Part shown: in pieces, positions 18,963 to 50,680 of the stretch
How positions within the stretch are numbered: position 1 is the stretch's first letter
Layout of the letters: every line of letters begins with the position of its first letter
Notes under the pieces: generated by a model
Told to the model about the DNA's origin: nothing
Seen by the model: only the letters and a program-made list of their open reading frames with translations
Databases searched by the model: none
Made by a program: the position numbers and the translations under genes
NCBI RefSeq assembly: GCF_023238445.1
Contig: NZ_CP096658.1
Coordinates: 868,001 to 932,000, forward strand
Source of the DNA: Halorussus gelatinilyticus
GTDB taxonomy: Archaea; Halobacteriota; Halobacteria; Halobacteriales; Haladaptataceae
Length of the DNA: 64,000 bases
Reading direction: 5' to 3'

Positions 18963-18974
18963 CGAACGTGTTCG
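18963..18974 (-). promoter_or_regulatory. CGAA-N4-TTCG palindrome upstream of nirK
   Basis: CGAACGTGTTCG lies 80 nt before the nirK ATG. A second inverted repeat, ttctcag/ctgagaa, occurs at 18980-18996. A TATA-like gattaaagg element lies between the palindrome and the gene, suggesting a transcript with a short leader. Confidence 0.7.
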
Positions 18975-21452: not shown

Positions 21453-21464
21453 CGAACGTGTTCG
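21453..21464 (-). promoter_or_regulatory. CGAA-N4-TTCG palindrome upstream of nor
   Basis: CGAACGTGTTCG lies 67 nt before the nor ATG, with a TATA-like aattaaaag (about 21412-21420) between them. Confidence 0.7.
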
Positions 21465-22489: not shown

Positions 22490-22501
22490 CGAACGTGTTC
22501 G
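22490..22501 (-). promoter_or_regulatory. CGAA-N4-TTCG palindrome, DUF2249/cupin operon
   Basis: The palindrome is 40 nt before the ATG at 22449. Read toward the gene, it continues GGGACAACC, an extension shared with the two other stand-alone DUF2249 promoters. No good TATA box is seen. Confidence 0.75.
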
Positions 22502-22988: not shown

Positions 22989-23000
22989 CGAACGTGTTCG
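22989..23000 (-). promoter_or_regulatory. CGAA-N4-TTCG palindrome, 38 nt before a cupin gene
   Basis: CGAACGTGTTCG sits in the 63-bp gap between the oxidase-like membrane gene and the cupin gene, 38 nt from the ATG at 22950. The spacer has no clear TATA box. Confidence 0.75.
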
Positions 23001-43554: not shown

Positions 43555-43833
43555 TTATTCCTCCGTCTCGCGCCAGATGGCCGTCAGGACGACCTCCTCG
43601 TCGGTCACGGTCTCGTACTCGTATCCCCTGTCGGTCAGTTTCGGATAGAGGTGTTGCGGTGCCCGGTCGTTGGCCTGCACGAGGACCGTCTCGTCGTCCG
43701 CCTCGGCCAGTCGCTCCAGCGTCTCGGTCAGCGGCTCGGGCGGTCCGAGGCTCCGCACGTCCAACTCCTCGCGCGGCCGGTCGGCCGGGGCGTCGGTGCG
43801 CTCGACTCCGCGCTCGGTGAACTGCGCCTGCAT
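43555..43833 (-). CDS. DUF2249 protein, copy 3
   Basis: The 92-residue protein has a charged N-terminus of about 25 residues and one DUF2249 domain (LDVRSLGPPEPLTETLERLAEADDETVLVQANDRAPQHLYPKL). Three in-frame starts are possible; the ATG at 43833 places a CGAATACGTTCG palindrome exactly 38 nt upstream, as for other members, which decides the start. It lies next to, and divergent from, a bacterio-opsin-activator-type regulator gene. Confidence 0.82.
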   Translation of the reverse strand: MQAQFTERGVERTDAPADRPREELDVRSLGPPEPLTETLERLAEADDETVLVQANDRAPQHLYPKLTDRGYEYETVTDEEVVLTAIWRETEE

Positions 43834-43871: not shown

Positions 43872-43883
43872 CGAATACGTTCG
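43872..43883 (-). promoter_or_regulatory. CGAA-N4-TTCG palindrome, 38 nt before DUF2249 copy 3
   Basis: CGAATACGTTCG is followed toward the gene by GGGACAAC, the extension shared by the three stand-alone DUF2249 promoters. Confidence 0.75.
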
Positions 43884-43914: not shown

Positions 43915-43926
43915 CGAACGTGTTCG
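43915..43926 (+). promoter_or_regulatory. CGAA-N4-TTCG palindrome before the regulator gene
   Basis: CGAACGTGTTCG lies 44 nt before the ATG at 43971. A TATA-like acttatcc (about 43933-43940) follows it, making this one of the few sites with a visible TATA box. Confidence 0.7.
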
Positions 43927-43970: not shown

Positions 43971-44594
43971 ATGCCAACGGCGAAACTACACATTTCGCTC
44001 CCCGAGAGCGTCTGGATTTCGGAGGTATCGACGGCCCACCCCGACGCGGAGTTTCGCGTCCTCGCGGCCTTCCCCGCCGAGGAGACCGGCGTCGGCCTGC
44101 TCGAAATCTCGGCCGACGACCTGCCGGCGGTCGTGGCCGCGATGGACGACCGCGAGGACATCACCCGACTCGACCTCCAGCAGGCGTCCGAAGAGTCCGC
44201 GCTGGTGGAGTTCGAGACGACCGAACCGCTCCTGCTGTTCTCGGTCCAGGAGTCGGGCCTCCCGCTGGAACTGCCGTTCACCATCGTCGACGGACAGGCC
44301 GAGGTGGAACTGACCGCCTCGCGCGACCGCCTGTCGGCGTTCACGACCCAACTGCAGGCCTTCGGGATGGACTTCGACGTGGAGTACGTCCGCGAGATGG
44401 TCAACTCCGAGAGCCTGCTGACCCAACGCCAGCGCGAACTCCTCCACACCGCGGTCGAGGAGGGCTACTACGACACCCCGCGGGAGTGCTCGCTGACCGA
44501 ACTCGCCGAGGAGGCGGGCGTGGCGAAATCGACCGCGAGCGAGACGCTCCACCGCGTCGAGGAGAAAATCGTCAAGGAGTACGTGGGCGAGTAG
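43971..44594 (+). CDS. Bacterio-opsin-activator-type HTH regulator
   Basis: The 207-residue protein has an N-terminal sensory region (about 1-145) and a C-terminal HTH_10 domain (LTQRQRELLHTAVEEGYYDTPRECSLTELAEEAGVAKSTASETLHRVEEKIVK). The known denitrification activator NarO has the same HTH type but a Cys-rich N-terminus. This protein has a single Cys, in the HTH, so it is not a direct NarO orthologue. It has the regulon palindrome upstream and is likely a regulon member or co-regulator. The upstream ATG alternatives lack support. Confidence 0.85.
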   Translation: MPTAKLHISLPESVWISEVSTAHPDAEFRVLAAFPAEETGVGLLEISADDLPAVVAAMDDREDITRLDLQQASEESALVEFETTEPLLLFSVQESGLPLELPFTIVDGQAEVELTASRDRLSAFTTQLQAFGMDFDVEYVREMVNSESLLTQRQRELLHTAVEEGYYDTPRECSLTELAEEAGVAKSTASETLHRVEEKIVKEYVGE

Positions 44595-44613: not shown

Positions 44614-45921
44614 TCAGGCGACGACCGCCGACTGCTCCGCTTCTCCCGAACTCGACTCCTCGGACTCGGCCAGCGCCTCCGCCGTCTGCTTCGCCTCCCG
44701 AACCCGGCCGGGAAGCCCGGCGCGAGCGGTGTAGTTCGTGCAGAGCCGAATTCCCTCGGGCATCGAAATCCGGTCTAGCGCGGCCCAACTCCGGTCGTAG
44801 GCGGGCATCCCCCGGCGAAGCCGATGCACCGAGAGGTCGCGCGCTTCGTAGCCGGTAATCTCCTCGAACTCCGCGGCCGCCAGCGACCCCAACGCCTCGT
44901 CGCTCCGCTCGACTAGTTCGGGGTTCCGCGACCCGCCGAGATAGCAGGTGTAGACGCCGTCGCGGTCGAGCAGGCTGTCGTTCCACGTCGCGCCGAGCGT
45001 CCGGAACTCCTCGTCGTACTGGACCTGATAGCCCGCGCCGGTCAGGTCCGTCTCGGCGTGGAGGTGGACGACGGCTTGGGGGTTGTAGTGCAACTCGCGG
45101 AGCGCGGCGGCCGAGTCGGGCGCGAGGTCCCCGAGCAGGTCGGCGGTCACGTCCGCCGGCGTGGTCACGACGAGTCGGTCCACCGCGGTCGCCCCGTCGT
45201 CGGTCTCCAGCGCGAACCCGTCTCCCTCGCGTCGAATCTCCCGAACCGGCGTCCCGAGGCGGACGCCTTCGTCGTGGGCCGCGGCGAGCGCCTCGGGGAG
45301 TCGCTGGAGACCGGCGTCGAACGAGACGATGGGCGGGGCTTCGCGGCCGTCGAGGACCTTCCGCGCGACGGCGGTCAGGACGCTCCGCTCGACGCCCGCC
45401 TTCTCCAGCGCCTTCGACAGCGAGTACTCGACGGGCATCTCGTCGGGGTGAGAGCCGTAGAGACCGCCGTAGAGCGGCCCGAAGTAGTAGCGCGCGACCT
45501 CCGGGCCGAACTTCCGGGTCAGGAACGCCTCGACGCTCTCGCCGTCGCGCGCCGGCCCGGTCAGCGGTTCCAACAGCGCCCGGAACTTCCCGCGCCACGA
45601 GAGCAGGTCGGTCGTCACCGCCTCTCGGGGCGACTGGGGCACCAGTCGGAGTCTCCCGTCGCGGTAGACGTACAGCGGCGGGTCCGCGGCCCGGCGCAGT
45701 TCCGACTCCAGTCCGAGCGATTCGACCAGTTCCCGAATGGCTGGCGTGAGGCGCGTTCGCTGGGGCCCGAAATCGAGTACCTTCCCCTCGACCTCCGCGC
45801 TCCGGACGACGCCGCCGGGTTCGTCGTCGGCCTCGAAGACGACGCTCTCGACGCCCGACTCCCGGAGGTAGTGGTGTGTCGCCAGTCCCGTGATGCCGCC
45901 GCCGACGATGCCGACGCTCAT
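44614..45921 (-). CDS. Protoporphyrinogen/coproporphyrinogen oxidase-like FAD protein
   Basis: The 435-residue flavoprotein begins with the dinucleotide motif GIVGGGITGLATHHYLRESG and the FAD-binding acidic strand FEADDEPGG. It has PPO-family segments (LDFGPQRTRLTPAIRELVESLGL, VEAFLTRKFGPEVARYYFGPLYGGLYGSHPDEM). It would oxidise a porphyrinogen late in haem synthesis. Archaea usually make haem by the sirohaem route, which does not need this step, so the substrate is uncertain. The ATG at 45921 lies 38 nt from a CGAAGACGTTCG palindrome, tying it to denitrification. Confidence 0.84.
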   Translation of the reverse strand: MSVGIVGGGITGLATHHYLRESGVESVVFEADDEPGGVVRSAEVEGKVLDFGPQRTRLTPAIRELVESLGLESELRRAADPPLYVYRDGRLRLVPQSPREAVTTDLLSWRGKFRALLEPLTGPARDGESVEAFLTRKFGPEVARYYFGPLYGGLYGSHPDEMPVEYSLSKALEKAGVERSVLTAVARKVLDGREAPPIVSFDAGLQRLPEALAAAHDEGVRLGTPVREIRREGDGFALETDDGATAVDRLVVTTPADVTADLLGDLAPDSAAALRELHYNPQAVVHLHAETDLTGAGYQVQYDEEFRTLGATWNDSLLDRDGVYTCYLGGSRNPELVERSDEALGSLAAAEFEEITGYEARDLSVHRLRRGMPAYDRSWAALDRISMPEGIRLCTNYTARAGLPGRVREAKQTAEALAESEESSSGEAEQSAVVA

Positions 45922-45959: not shown

Positions 45960-45971
45960 CGAAGACGTTCG
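45960..45971 (-). promoter_or_regulatory. CGAA-N4-TTCG palindrome, 38 nt before the PPO-like gene
   Basis: CGAAGACGTTCG lies exactly 38 nt before the ATG at 45921. Toward the other side, a run of gttcg/attcg repeats (ggttcggttcaattcggtcc and similar, 45970-46040) separates it from the next gene. Confidence 0.72.
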
Positions 45972-46059
45972 GTTCGGTTCAATTCGGTCCAGTTCGCTTC
46001 GGTCTGGTTCGGTCCGATTCGATTCGCTTCGACTCGACTCGTGCGAGAAGCGCGCCGCG
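45972..46059. repeat. TTCGG-like simple repeat tract
   Basis: The spacer contains many near-tandem copies of a 5-bp unit (ggttc, gattc, cttcg) over about 65 bp. It is short and imperfect, and likely arose by slippage. Confidence 0.5.
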
Positions 46060-46404
46060 CTACTCCGTCAGCAGGCCGAGCGCGGTCTCGGAGTCCACCT
46101 CGCCGTCGGCCAGTTTCGACGCCCACTGCTCGACCATCGCGTCGGTGAGTCGCGCCGCGAGGCGTTCCAACACCCGTCGCTCGTCACGCGAGAGGTCGCC
46201 CCGCTCGTCCAATCGCCGGAGCGCGGTGTCGAGTTCCCGGCGGCGGACGCGCCGACCGCGAGCGCGGACCCGCTCGGCGGCGGCCGACGCTCCGGCGTCG
46301 CCGCCCCGTCCGGCGTCGAAGTCTCCCAATCGCTCGGCGTCGGCTTCCGGTCCGGGGTCCGCGGTCGTCGCCGACTCCGAGTCGAGTCTTCCGAGTTCGG
46401 TCAC
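46060..46404 (-). CDS. Stand-alone protein resembling the glutamyl-tRNA reductase dimerisation domain
   Basis: The 114-residue protein has a variable acidic N-terminus (about 45 residues) and a helical C-terminal segment, RVRRRELDTALRRLDERGDLSRDERRVLERLAARLTDAMVEQW. This closely resembles the C-terminal dimerisation domain of HemA (glutamyl-tRNA reductase). No catalytic or NADPH domain is present. It could regulate HemA, since HemA-partner proteins exist elsewhere. The ATG lies 38 nt from a CGAACGTGTTCG palindrome shared with mobA. Confidence 0.75.
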   Translation of the reverse strand: MTELGRLDSESATTADPGPEADAERLGDFDAGRGGDAGASAAAERVRARGRRVRRRELDTALRRLDERGDLSRDERRVLERLAARLTDAMVEQWASKLADGEVDSETALGLLTE

Positions 46405-46442
46405 GTGGCGAGGTTACACCGCGCGCTCCGAAGCGACTGCGC

Positions 46443-46454
46443 CGAACGTGTTCG
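46443..46454. promoter_or_regulatory. Shared CGAA-N4-TTCG palindrome, 38 nt from both divergent genes
   Basis: CGAACGTGTTCG lies exactly 38 nt before the ATG at 46404 (minus) and 38 nt before the GTG at 46493 (plus). Being a palindrome, it can serve both with identical geometry. Confidence 0.78.
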
Positions 46455-46492
46455 GCCCAACGTCTACCGACGAGGGGAGAGAATCGCCGGAC

Positions 46493-47218
46493 GTGAACGA
46501 GTCACTGCCGGACGTCGAGACCGACGACCCGACGGGCGTCGTCCTCGCGGGCGGCTACTCCCGGCGGTTCGGCGACCGCGACAAGGCGCTGGCCCGACTC
46601 GGCGGGCGACCGCTCCTCGCGCGCGTCGTCGGCCGCCTCGGAGACGTCGCCGACCGCGTGGTGGTCAGCTGCCGGAGCGACCAGCGCGCGGCGTTCGACG
46701 ACGCGCTGGCGGTGGACGACGGGGTTTCGGTCACCGTCGAGTTCGTCGCCGACCCGGTGCCCGACAGGGGACCCCTCTACGGTTTCCGTGCCGCGCTCGG
46801 CGCGGTCGAGACCGAGACCTGCGCGCTGACGGCCTGCGACGCGCCGTTCCTCGACCCCCGACTGGTCGCGGATCTCGCCGCGCGACTCGAATCCACCGCG
46901 AACGCCCCGGACGCTCCGGACGCGGCCGCGGTGCTGGCCGACGAGCGCCTCGTCCCGACGCAGGCGGTCTACCGGACCGGCCCGGCGAGAGCCGCCGCCG
47001 AGGAACTGCTCGACGCCGGCGTGACCCGACTCTCGGCGCTTCTCGACCGCCTCGACGCGCTGGCGGTCCCGGCCGAGGAGGTCGCCGGGGACGCCGAGCG
47101 GAGCCTGTTCGACGTGGACACGCCCGCCGATCGCGAGGCGGCGGTCCGGATGCTCCGGGAACTCGCGGAAGCCGAGGCGAGCGATGCGGGCCGGCGGGAG
47201 ACGTCGGTACCGCGATGA
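46493..47218 (+). CDS. mobA: Molybdenum cofactor guanylyltransferase
   Basis: MobA joins GMP to molybdopterin to make the MGD cofactor needed by NarG. The 241-residue protein has the nucleotidyltransferase signature VVLAGGYSRRFGDRDKAL (residues 16-33), the metal-binding Asp region TACDAPFLDP and a late FDVDTPADRE. The GTG start is preferred because it lies 38 nt from the palindrome and gives the standard family N-terminus. Its stop overlaps the ATG of the next gene. Confidence 0.92.
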   Translation: MNESLPDVETDDPTGVVLAGGYSRRFGDRDKALARLGGRPLLARVVGRLGDVADRVVVSCRSDQRAAFDDALAVDDGVSVTVEFVADPVPDRGPLYGFRAALGAVETETCALTACDAPFLDPRLVADLAARLESTANAPDAPDAAAVLADERLVPTQAVYRTGPARAAAEELLDAGVTRLSALLDRLDALAVPAEEVAGDAERSLFDVDTPADREAAVRMLRELAEAEASDAGRRETSVPR

Positions 47219-49388: not shown

Positions 49389-49937
49389 TCACTCCACGAC
49401 GATTGCGCCCTTCATGCCCATCGCCTTGTGGGGCGTGCAGTAGTACTTGTGCTTGCCCGCGCTGTCGAACGTCTGGCTGAAGGTGAAGCCCTCCTTTTGG
49501 GTCTGCTTGCTCTCGAAGGAGCCGTCGTCCGCGACGACGTTGTGCACGCTGCCCTTCCCGGTCCACTTCCAGACGACTTTCGTCCCCTTCGAGACCTCGA
49601 CCGCGGCCGGGCCGAACGCGAAGTTGCCGCCGTTGCCCTTCGCGCCGACCTTCACCGTCACCTCGCTACTGCCGGTCTTATCGACCACGCCGTCGAAGTT
49701 CGAGGTGTTGTCGAACCAGCCGTCGAAGCTCACCGAGTCGCTTCCGGAACTACCGCCCGAGTCGCCGGACCCGTCTCCGGAGCTACCGCCGCTGTCTCCG
49801 GAGCTACCGCCGCTGTCCCCGGAGCTACCGCCGCCGTCTCCGGAACCGCCGCTCGAACAGCCCGCGATAGTCGCCGTCGCCGCGCCCGCAGCCATCGTCT
49901 TCAGCATCGTTCGTCGGTCGAGAGTATCTCGGGTCAT
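49389..49937 (-). CDS. Halocyanin (blue copper protein)
   Basis: Halocyanins carry electrons on the outer membrane face and can feed NirK. The 182-residue precursor has a Tat signal (RRTMLKTMAAGAATATIAGC) with lipobox Cys, a Ser/Gly/Asp linker of about 50 residues, and one cupredoxin domain. Copper ligands are His in GSVHNVVADD and Cys-His-Met in YYCTPHKAMGMKG. I chose the ATG at 49937 because a TATA-like catttatg lies about 26 nt upstream; a GTG two codons earlier is possible. A CGAACGTGTTCG palindrome lies 69 nt upstream. Confidence 0.9.
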   Translation of the reverse strand: MTRDTLDRRTMLKTMAAGAATATIAGCSSGGSGDGGGSSGDSGGSSGDSGGSSGDGSGDSGGSSGSDSVSFDGWFDNTSNFDGVVDKTGSSEVTVKVGAKGNGGNFAFGPAAVEVSKGTKVVWKWTGKGSVHNVVADDGSFESKQTQKEGFTFSQTFDSAGKHKYYCTPHKAMGMKGAIVVE

Positions 49938-50006: not shown

Positions 50007-50018
50007 CGAACGTGTTCG
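50007..50018. promoter_or_regulatory. CGAA-N4-TTCG palindrome between halocyanin and an unknown gene
   Basis: CGAACGTGTTCG lies 38 nt before the ATG at 50057 (plus) and 69 nt before the halocyanin ATG (minus). The two spacings match the two classes seen elsewhere: 38 nt without a TATA box, longer with one. Confidence 0.75.
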
Positions 50019-50056: not shown

Positions 50057-50680
50057 ATGCCCAGTATCCCGCGGCCCTTCGCCAGCGACGACGCCGACGA
50101 CGAGACCTTCGACGAGTACGACGAGTTCCGCCCCGACCACCTGCCGGTCCCCGGTCCGTTCCTGCAAGGCGCGGACGTGCTGACCGGCGCGGACCACTGC
50201 GCGTTCCACCGACTCACGCGCGACATCTTCGAGGAGCGCGGTGTCTACGACGCCACCTTCGGCTACAACCTCGCGCGACTCAACCTCGATTCGCGCCACC
50301 CCGACGCCGGCTGGCGGTACGCTCGCGTCGAGGCGGACCGCGAGGGAGGGGACGGCGAGGAAGGGGGCGACGAAGGAGACGCCGACGTGCTGCTCGCGGA
50401 GTTCACGCCGACCACGAAGTTTTGCCCCCAGAGCGAGAGCCTGACTATCGGAGCGTTCCGGGCGTGGAACGGCCTGAGCGACCGCCACGACTACGAGCGC
50501 GTCTCGGTGGGTCTCGCGCCGATGCACCACGAGAGTACGGACATCAACGAGAAACTGCGGAGCCTGGAAGGGCGACTCGACGACGGCGAGAGTGTAGCGG
50601 ATTCCGAAGACACTCCACGAACCGGGGGAAGAAATCGAGGGCGTTCCGACGACGCGGACGACTCGTCGCTCCCGTTCTGA
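50057..50680 (+). CDS. Unknown haloarchaeal protein in the denitrification regulon
   Basis: The 207-residue protein has a conserved-looking core: HLPVPGPFLQGADVLTGADHCAFHRLTRDIFEERGVYDATFGYNLARLNLDS, then LLAEFTPTTKFCPQSESLTIGAFRAWNGL and RVSVGLAPMHHESTDINEKL. Two Cys and several His could bind a metal or Fe-S cluster; the second half is reminiscent of DUF59/MIP18-type assembly proteins. The disordered tail is charged. It has no signal. Its ATG is exactly 38 nt after the palindrome, so it is probably expressed with halocyanin and nar genes. Confidence 0.75.
   Translation: MPSIPRPFASDDADDETFDEYDEFRPDHLPVPGPFLQGADVLTGADHCAFHRLTRDIFEERGVYDATFGYNLARLNLDSRHPDAGWRYARVEADREGGDGEEGGDEGDADVLLAEFTPTTKFCPQSESLTIGAFRAWNGLSDRHDYERVSVGLAPMHHESTDINEKLRSLEGRLDDGESVADSEDTPRTGGRNRGRSDDADDSSLPF

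Follow-up and report, generated by a model that had tools for sequence, protein, structure and literature searches.

The mobA-like gene and a neighbouring 114-aa open reading frame (ORF) start in opposite directions from one palindrome, which lies exactly 38 nt from each start codon, and the same spacing recurs across the haloarchaeal denitrification regulon. We consider it probable (about 0.75) that an anaerobically active dimer binds this palindrome and aids TFB and TBP on two weak leaderless promoters, and that this contact fixes the distance. The window (the whole stretch of DNA that was analysed, 64 kb of a 3.67-Mb genome) is a Halorussus-type denitrification island. It contains nirK (copper nitrite reductase, TIGR02376, 443 bits), norB, a gene for a halocyanin-like copper protein, several DUF2249 genes and an HTH_10 regulator gene, and a molybdopterin oxidoreductase sits where narG is expected.

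Geometry of the shared operator

The 12-mer CGAACGTGTTCG at positions 46443-46454 reads CGAA-CGTG-TTCG and displays the dyad CGAA-N4-TTCG. By sequence inspection it extends by two bases on either side into a 16-bp dyad, GCCGAAC-GT-GTTCGGC (46441..46456), a palindromic operator common to the two divergent promoters. On the minus strand, a 38-nt core promoter spacer of the leaderless type (46405..46442) leads to position 46404, the G of the GTG codon of the GlutR_dimer ORF. On the plus strand, a spacer of the same type and length (46455..46492) leads to position 46493, the G of the GTG codon of mobA. The distance from the dyad centre to each start codon is 44.5 nt. The initial annotation had placed the palindrome 38 nt from both divergent starts, and these coordinates bear it out; the left start, given there as ATG, is in fact the GTG at 46404.

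Counted by strand, the window contains 19 matches to CGAACNNNTTCG; the expectation from dinucleotide shuffles is 2.06, and none of 100 shuffles reached 19. Seven of the 12 exact copies of CGAACGTGTTCG present in the genome are located inside the window. A chance occurrence of the palindrome and of its spacing is ruled out by the shuffles together with the genus- and order-wide spacing scans given below.

The divergent gene pair and the PPOX gene

The left-hand ORF (46060..46404, minus strand, GTG start) encodes a stand-alone domain of 114 aa that matches the Pfam family GlutR_dimer (PF00745) with an E-value of 4.8e-6 and 27.3 bits (cut-off 22.9); no NCBIfam match was found for it. Its first description as GluTR-like, with a direct regulation of haem synthesis through this gene, is rejected as stated. 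The protein matches GlutR_dimer only and lacks the catalytic and NADPH-binding domains of a full-length glutamyl-tRNA reductase, and a 469-aa frame located elsewhere (G000:C1:390467), which matches GlutR_dimer too, is probably the real GluTR. A stand-alone GlutR_dimer protein is kept beside PPOX across the genus, and relatives of about 102 aa are found in other families.

The mobA-like gene (46493..47218, plus strand, GTG start) encodes a MobA-like NTP transferase domain (PF12804, 112 bits). The exact substrate of the protein is uncertain because its score against TIGR02665 (89.5 bits) is under the curated cut-off of 151.85. The search for mobA in the genome contigs recovered three loci only, and in a distant Halorubrum homologue no palindrome was found near mobA.

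The next gene on the minus strand (44614..45921) is protoporphyrinogen oxidase-like (PPOX; TIGR00562, 151 bits). It has its own operator, CGAACGTCTTCG (45960..45971, minus strand), 38 nt from its ATG at 45921, and the link with haem rests better on this gene than on the GlutR_dimer ORF. A run of degenerate TTCGGTTCG-like repeats fills positions 45972-46045, which separate the GlutR_dimer ORF from the PPOX operator; a similar, yet different, run is seen at locus L051.

Other operators of the denitrification cluster

The palindrome recurs in the window at nirK, norB and the halocyanin and DUF2249 genes. Besides PPOX, the spacing of 38 nt to an ATG is found at the cupin gene (operator CGAACGTGTTCG, 22989..23000, minus strand; ATG 22950), at a DUF2249 gene (43555..43833, minus strand; operator CGAACGTATTCG, 43872..43883, minus strand; ATG 43833) and at a plus-strand ORF with ATG at 50057. 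The operator of this ORF (50007..50018, plus strand) is also located 69 nt from the minus-strand halocyanin ATG at 49937. Other spacings are 40 nt for a DUF2249 gene (22490..22501, minus strand; ATG 22449), 44 nt for the start of the HTH_10 regulator gene (CGAACGTGTTCG, 43915..43926, plus strand), 67 nt for norB (21453..21464, minus strand; ATG 21385) and 80 nt for nirK (18963..18974, minus strand; ATG 18882). The mechanical ORF starts of the DUF2249 gene (43977) and of norB (21559) lie too far upstream; the starts at 43833 and 21385 are those favoured by the spacing rule and the relatives.

A link between haem regulation and molybdenum cofactor synthesis had been proposed by way of the GluTR-like gene. 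The link is real, since both belong to the published denitrification regulon (PMC5746218, PMC11218638), and it does not pass through GluTR.

The 38-nt spacing as a general rule

Among 274 distinct CGAA-N4-TTCG sites of the retrieved loci, the in-frame ATG of an open frame is found at 38 nt 57 times, with a mean of 2.83 per spacing, and the neighbouring spacings of 37 and 39 nt have 5 and 0 occurrences, respectively; as these loci were partly chosen via the present gene cluster and orthologues were counted, the values describe a pattern and not independent trials. GTG is found at 38 nt 17 times (mean 4.72), a value also reached by one other spacing. The second ATG peak, at 80 nt, is largely composed of nirK promoters and of regulator/DUF2249 regions with two palindromes. 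The same spacing analysis revealed no comparable ATG peak for CGAA-N3-TTCG, CGAA-N5-TTCG, CGAA-N6-TTCG or other dyads.

In whole-genome pattern counts over 18 genomes of the genus, 104 matches were obtained at 38 nt, 21 at 37 nt and 12 at 39 nt. Of 195 genomes of the order, at least one match is present in 174 at 38 nt, in 127 at 37 nt and in 140 at 39 nt; in the order-wide scans the loci were not picked via the cluster, and the counts include ATG codons matched by chance within genes.

The symmetry of the site had been taken as added evidence for the function of the distance, a point not borne out by the counts. A start at 38 nt is present on at least one side in 94 of 324 sites and on both sides in eight of them (orthologues included), and about eight would be predicted by independent placement. 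Since the number of double-sided sites is close to this expectation, the symmetry requires no separate explanation and a special meaning of it is unsupported. Five of the eight correspond to the GlutR_dimer ORF/mobA pair, one to a DUF2249/HTH_10 regulator pair (L111) and the remaining two to other gene pairs in another family (L067, L071). The 38-nt rule works per promoter: a single operator is used by both promoters, each with its own requirement for 38 nt.

Conservation of the arrangement in related genomes

The orthologues of the GlutR_dimer ORF were compared in twelve other genomes of the genus. Counting the present genome, the distance from the palindrome to the start of this ORF is 38 nt in eight genomes and 39 nt in three, and the mobA GTG is found at 38 nt in five of the six genomes that possess the gene pair. 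The 38/38 arrangement with an altered core and spacer is observed at loci L043, L044, L048 and L050: the four central bases of the dyad change freely (CGTG, CACG, CCCG) and the spacers differ too. At the syntenic locus L047, GAG replaces GTG at 38 nt before mobA and the next ATG is at 43 nt. In genome G082 (L049) the GlutR_dimer ORF is present and the exact palindrome was not found. L047 and L049 both count against the mechanism proposed below. At L046 the exact pattern is matched by the PPOX site only. In the genus comparison, every PPOX site found next to its gene lies 38 nt from the ATG.

The alignment of related genomes, proposed at the outset as a check on whether 38/38 is kept while the spacer changes, thus gave the predicted outcome. 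Together with the sharp peak at 38 nt across the genus and the order, this supports the claim that the distance is functional: being conserved, it very probably is.

Anatomy of the promoters

A profile was built from 60 non-redundant 38-nt promoters. It contains G at -38, AA at -34/-33, T/A at -28/-27, TA at -11/-10 and C/T at -1 before the ATG. This profile fits the haloarchaeal BRE, TATA and -10 elements, with a predicted transcription start on the start codon, and judged from these sequences the 38-nt promoters look leaderless. GTG starts are rarer in leaderless transcripts, which counts against a leaderless reading here. In Haloferax, 72% of the protein-coding transcripts are leaderless, some of them with GUG (PMC4983044). 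At the 38-nt promoters the operator ends a few bases upstream of the BRE and does not overlap the TATA element, and the core promoters are weak.

In the promoters with long spacing (nirK 80 nt, norB 67 nt, halocyanin 69 nt) the TATA (ATTAAA, ATTTAT) is far stronger and lies about 33-45 nt beyond the palindrome. Their spacings count against the mechanism proposed below. A second, short dyad, TTC-N11-GAA in form, seems to recur in these promoters (18963-18974, 21453-21464 and the minus side of 50007-50018), at about 7-23 nt from the palindrome and ahead of the strong TATA. This dyad is possibly the site of a second regulator; a strict regular expression for the second dyad and the strong TATA recovered five sites only.

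The candidate regulator

The best candidate for the operator-binding protein is, on the ground of guilt by association, the Bat-type HTH_10 regulator encoded at 43971..44594 on the plus strand (HTH_10, PF04967, 69.6 bits), in which the match to the BAT domain is weak. Its orthologues in 15 other genomes of the genus display 74-96% identity and, where checked, are located in or beside the palindrome cluster (16 of 18 genomes of the genus). Outside the genus, 18 of 20 genomes have a palindrome in the 300 bp that precede the orthologue, often at a distance of 38-48 nt. Among the HTH_10 paralogue loci of the present genome, one of ten has a palindrome nearby. Several genomes of a sister genus with 38-nt sites yielded no regulator orthologue at E<=1e-45, and another HTH_10 paralogue may therefore bind there.

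The defining feature of NarO, a Cys-Xn-Cys-X2-Cys motif close to the N terminus, is missing from the candidate, which has a single cysteine and no CxxC. NarO itself was rejected as the regulator, as no CxxC occurs in the candidate or in the ten HTH_10 loci that were read out of the 31 matches in this genome; at some of these ten (L202, L209) the automatically chosen frame looks wrong. At seven loci (L214, L216, L217, L219, L222, L226 and L227) a copy of CGAA-N4-TTCG is located 1-9 nt before the start of the regulator orthologue, a position that suggests autorepression besides activation.

Proposed mechanism and alternative explanations

In the proposed mechanism, an activator of the haloarchaeal denitrification regulon would use the palindrome as its operator, common to both divergent leaderless promoters. 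This activator would be a dimeric helix-turn-helix protein that is active at low oxygen and/or in the presence of nitrogen oxides and binds CGAA-N4-TTCG. With the start codon as the putative +1, the operator would end at -39 with its centre at about -44.5, upstream of the predicted BRE (-34/-33) and of a weak TATA (-28/-27), and the bound protein would aid the loading of TFB and TBP on an otherwise weak core promoter. Two features would hold the spacing constant: a leaderless transcript and a contact with the basal machinery that allows no displacement. Given the symmetric dyad and the 38 nt on either side, a single dimer bound at 46441-46456 could act at once on the GlutR_dimer ORF and on mobA, whose product would serve the molybdenum cofactor of nitrate reductase. 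We would give even odds to a wider rule, in which the haloarchaeal genes for anaerobic respiration follow a rigid promoter grammar: one dimeric Bat-type regulator would act from fixed positions only, either centred at -44.5 relative to a leaderless start or at a longer spacing combined with a second element, and with enough symmetry for one dimer to drive a pair of opposed promoters.

The identity of the binding protein is where the proposal is most open to an alternative. It is possible, although we lean against it, that the protein is another Bat-type paralogue, a cysteine-containing sensor of the NarO type or an unrelated regulator, a substitution compatible with the rest of the mechanism. 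The numerous HTH_10 paralogues, the sister-genus genomes that have 38-nt sites and no close orthologue, and the single cysteine of the candidate, in which a NarO-type oxygen sensor is not evident, point in this direction, and according to a 2024 paper (PMC11218638) no regulator was known for the Haloferax motif. The palindrome just upstream of the orthologue at most loci outside the genus and the position of the orthologues beside the cluster within it argue for the candidate. The palindrome could also be the operator of a repressor, a dimer that blocks TFB and TBP under oxic conditions and leaves during denitrification. Sites near BRE and TATA can repress, and in many regulator genes the start codon is preceded, at 1-9 nt, by a second palindrome, a repressing position; this reading is nevertheless unlikely, as point mutations of the motif in Haloferax mediterranei lower, and do not raise, the activity of the nor and nos promoters (PMC10062603), and as the 38-nt sites combine an operator clear of the TATA with weak core promoters, typical of activated genes.

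The spacing might also reflect nothing more than the relatedness of the genomes or a constraint from coding, in intergenic DNA that is simply conserved: the compared genomes are related and, upstream of mobA, its frame stays open across the palindrome. This explanation is largely contradicted by the spacers and cores, which differ among genomes while the length stays at 38 nt, and by the recurrence of this distance in other families and at unrelated genes (cupin, DUF2249, PPOX, MoaD-like, peroxiredoxin, CGCGG peptide), so that we give it very little weight. Still less credible is an RNA hairpin or a transcription terminator between the divergent genes. The inverted repeat is G+C-rich as such an element would be, but no T run is present on either side, a transcript end is not expected between genes that diverge, and the palindrome would be untranscribed in the predicted leaderless transcripts.

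Comparison with known systems

The operator and the regulon were already known. For Haloferax volcanii, PMC5746218, which cites Hattori 2016, places CGAA-X4-TTCG at the promoters of denitrification genes and at ahbD, a haem gene, and describes it as indispensable for the transcription of nirK. In H. mediterranei, CGAAYATDKTYG is common to the nar, nir, nor and nos promoters (PMC10062603); this narrower MEME consensus is not matched here, CGAACGTGTTCG having G for A at position 6. Under denitrification, mobA is up in this species and Bat-type regulators change their expression (PMC11218638). The Haloferax system thus resembles the present one by the same dyad and by a gene set with nirK, nor, halocyanin, DUF2249 and a Bat-type regulator. 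The published distances of the H. mediterranei nirK and nor palindromes, 79 and 66 nt upstream of the ATG, agree with the 80 and 67 nt observed here. However, the promoters that carried the mutations in PMC10062603 (nir, nor and nos) are long-spaced (66-79 nt), whereas the commonest arrangement here is the 38-nt one, leaderless-type and sometimes bidirectional. No description of a fixed 38-nt leaderless geometry with double-sided use was found in the literature covered, which did not include Hattori 2016.

The bacterial FNR/CRP class II promoters also combine a symmetric site at a fixed distance beside the core promoter with genes of anaerobic respiration. The centre of an FNR class II site is at about -41.5, against about -44.5 here. 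The likeness is one of analogy and not of homology, as the present promoters depend on archaeal TFB, TBP and RNAP and probably on an HTH_10 regulator. With the NarO/DmsR/Bat regulators, the candidate shares the HTH_10 domain and a weak BAT-domain match; it differs by its single cysteine without CxxC, and its status as the binder is predicted.

With a fixed 38-nt grammar, regulon members and true start codons can be read from sequence, and genes of molybdenum cofactor and haem are tied to denitrification without expression data. The analysis also names one candidate regulator for the haloarchaeal denitrification motif. The 38-nt promoters offer a clean case for the recruitment of TFB and TBP by an archaeal activator adjacent to the BRE, in which the bidirectional site is a built-in control. 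If the rigid grammar is true, it would represent a class-II-like activation rule in an archaeon, with a spacing readable from sequence alone.

Further observations concern genes outside the window. At G000:C1:709950 (L002, position 1501), the gene behind a 38-nt site encodes a MoaD/ThiS-like protein with FCC as its last residues, again of the molybdenum-cofactor or sulfur-carrier type. At position 1001 of L147 and of L128, a 38-nt site stands before the gene of a putative rSAM-modified RiPP protein of the CGCGG family (TIGR03995; the L147 protein scores 141.6 bits). Finally, a nirK relative broken by stops is located at G097:C3:177622-178331, in the only nearly complete genome of the genus without an orthologue of the regulator.
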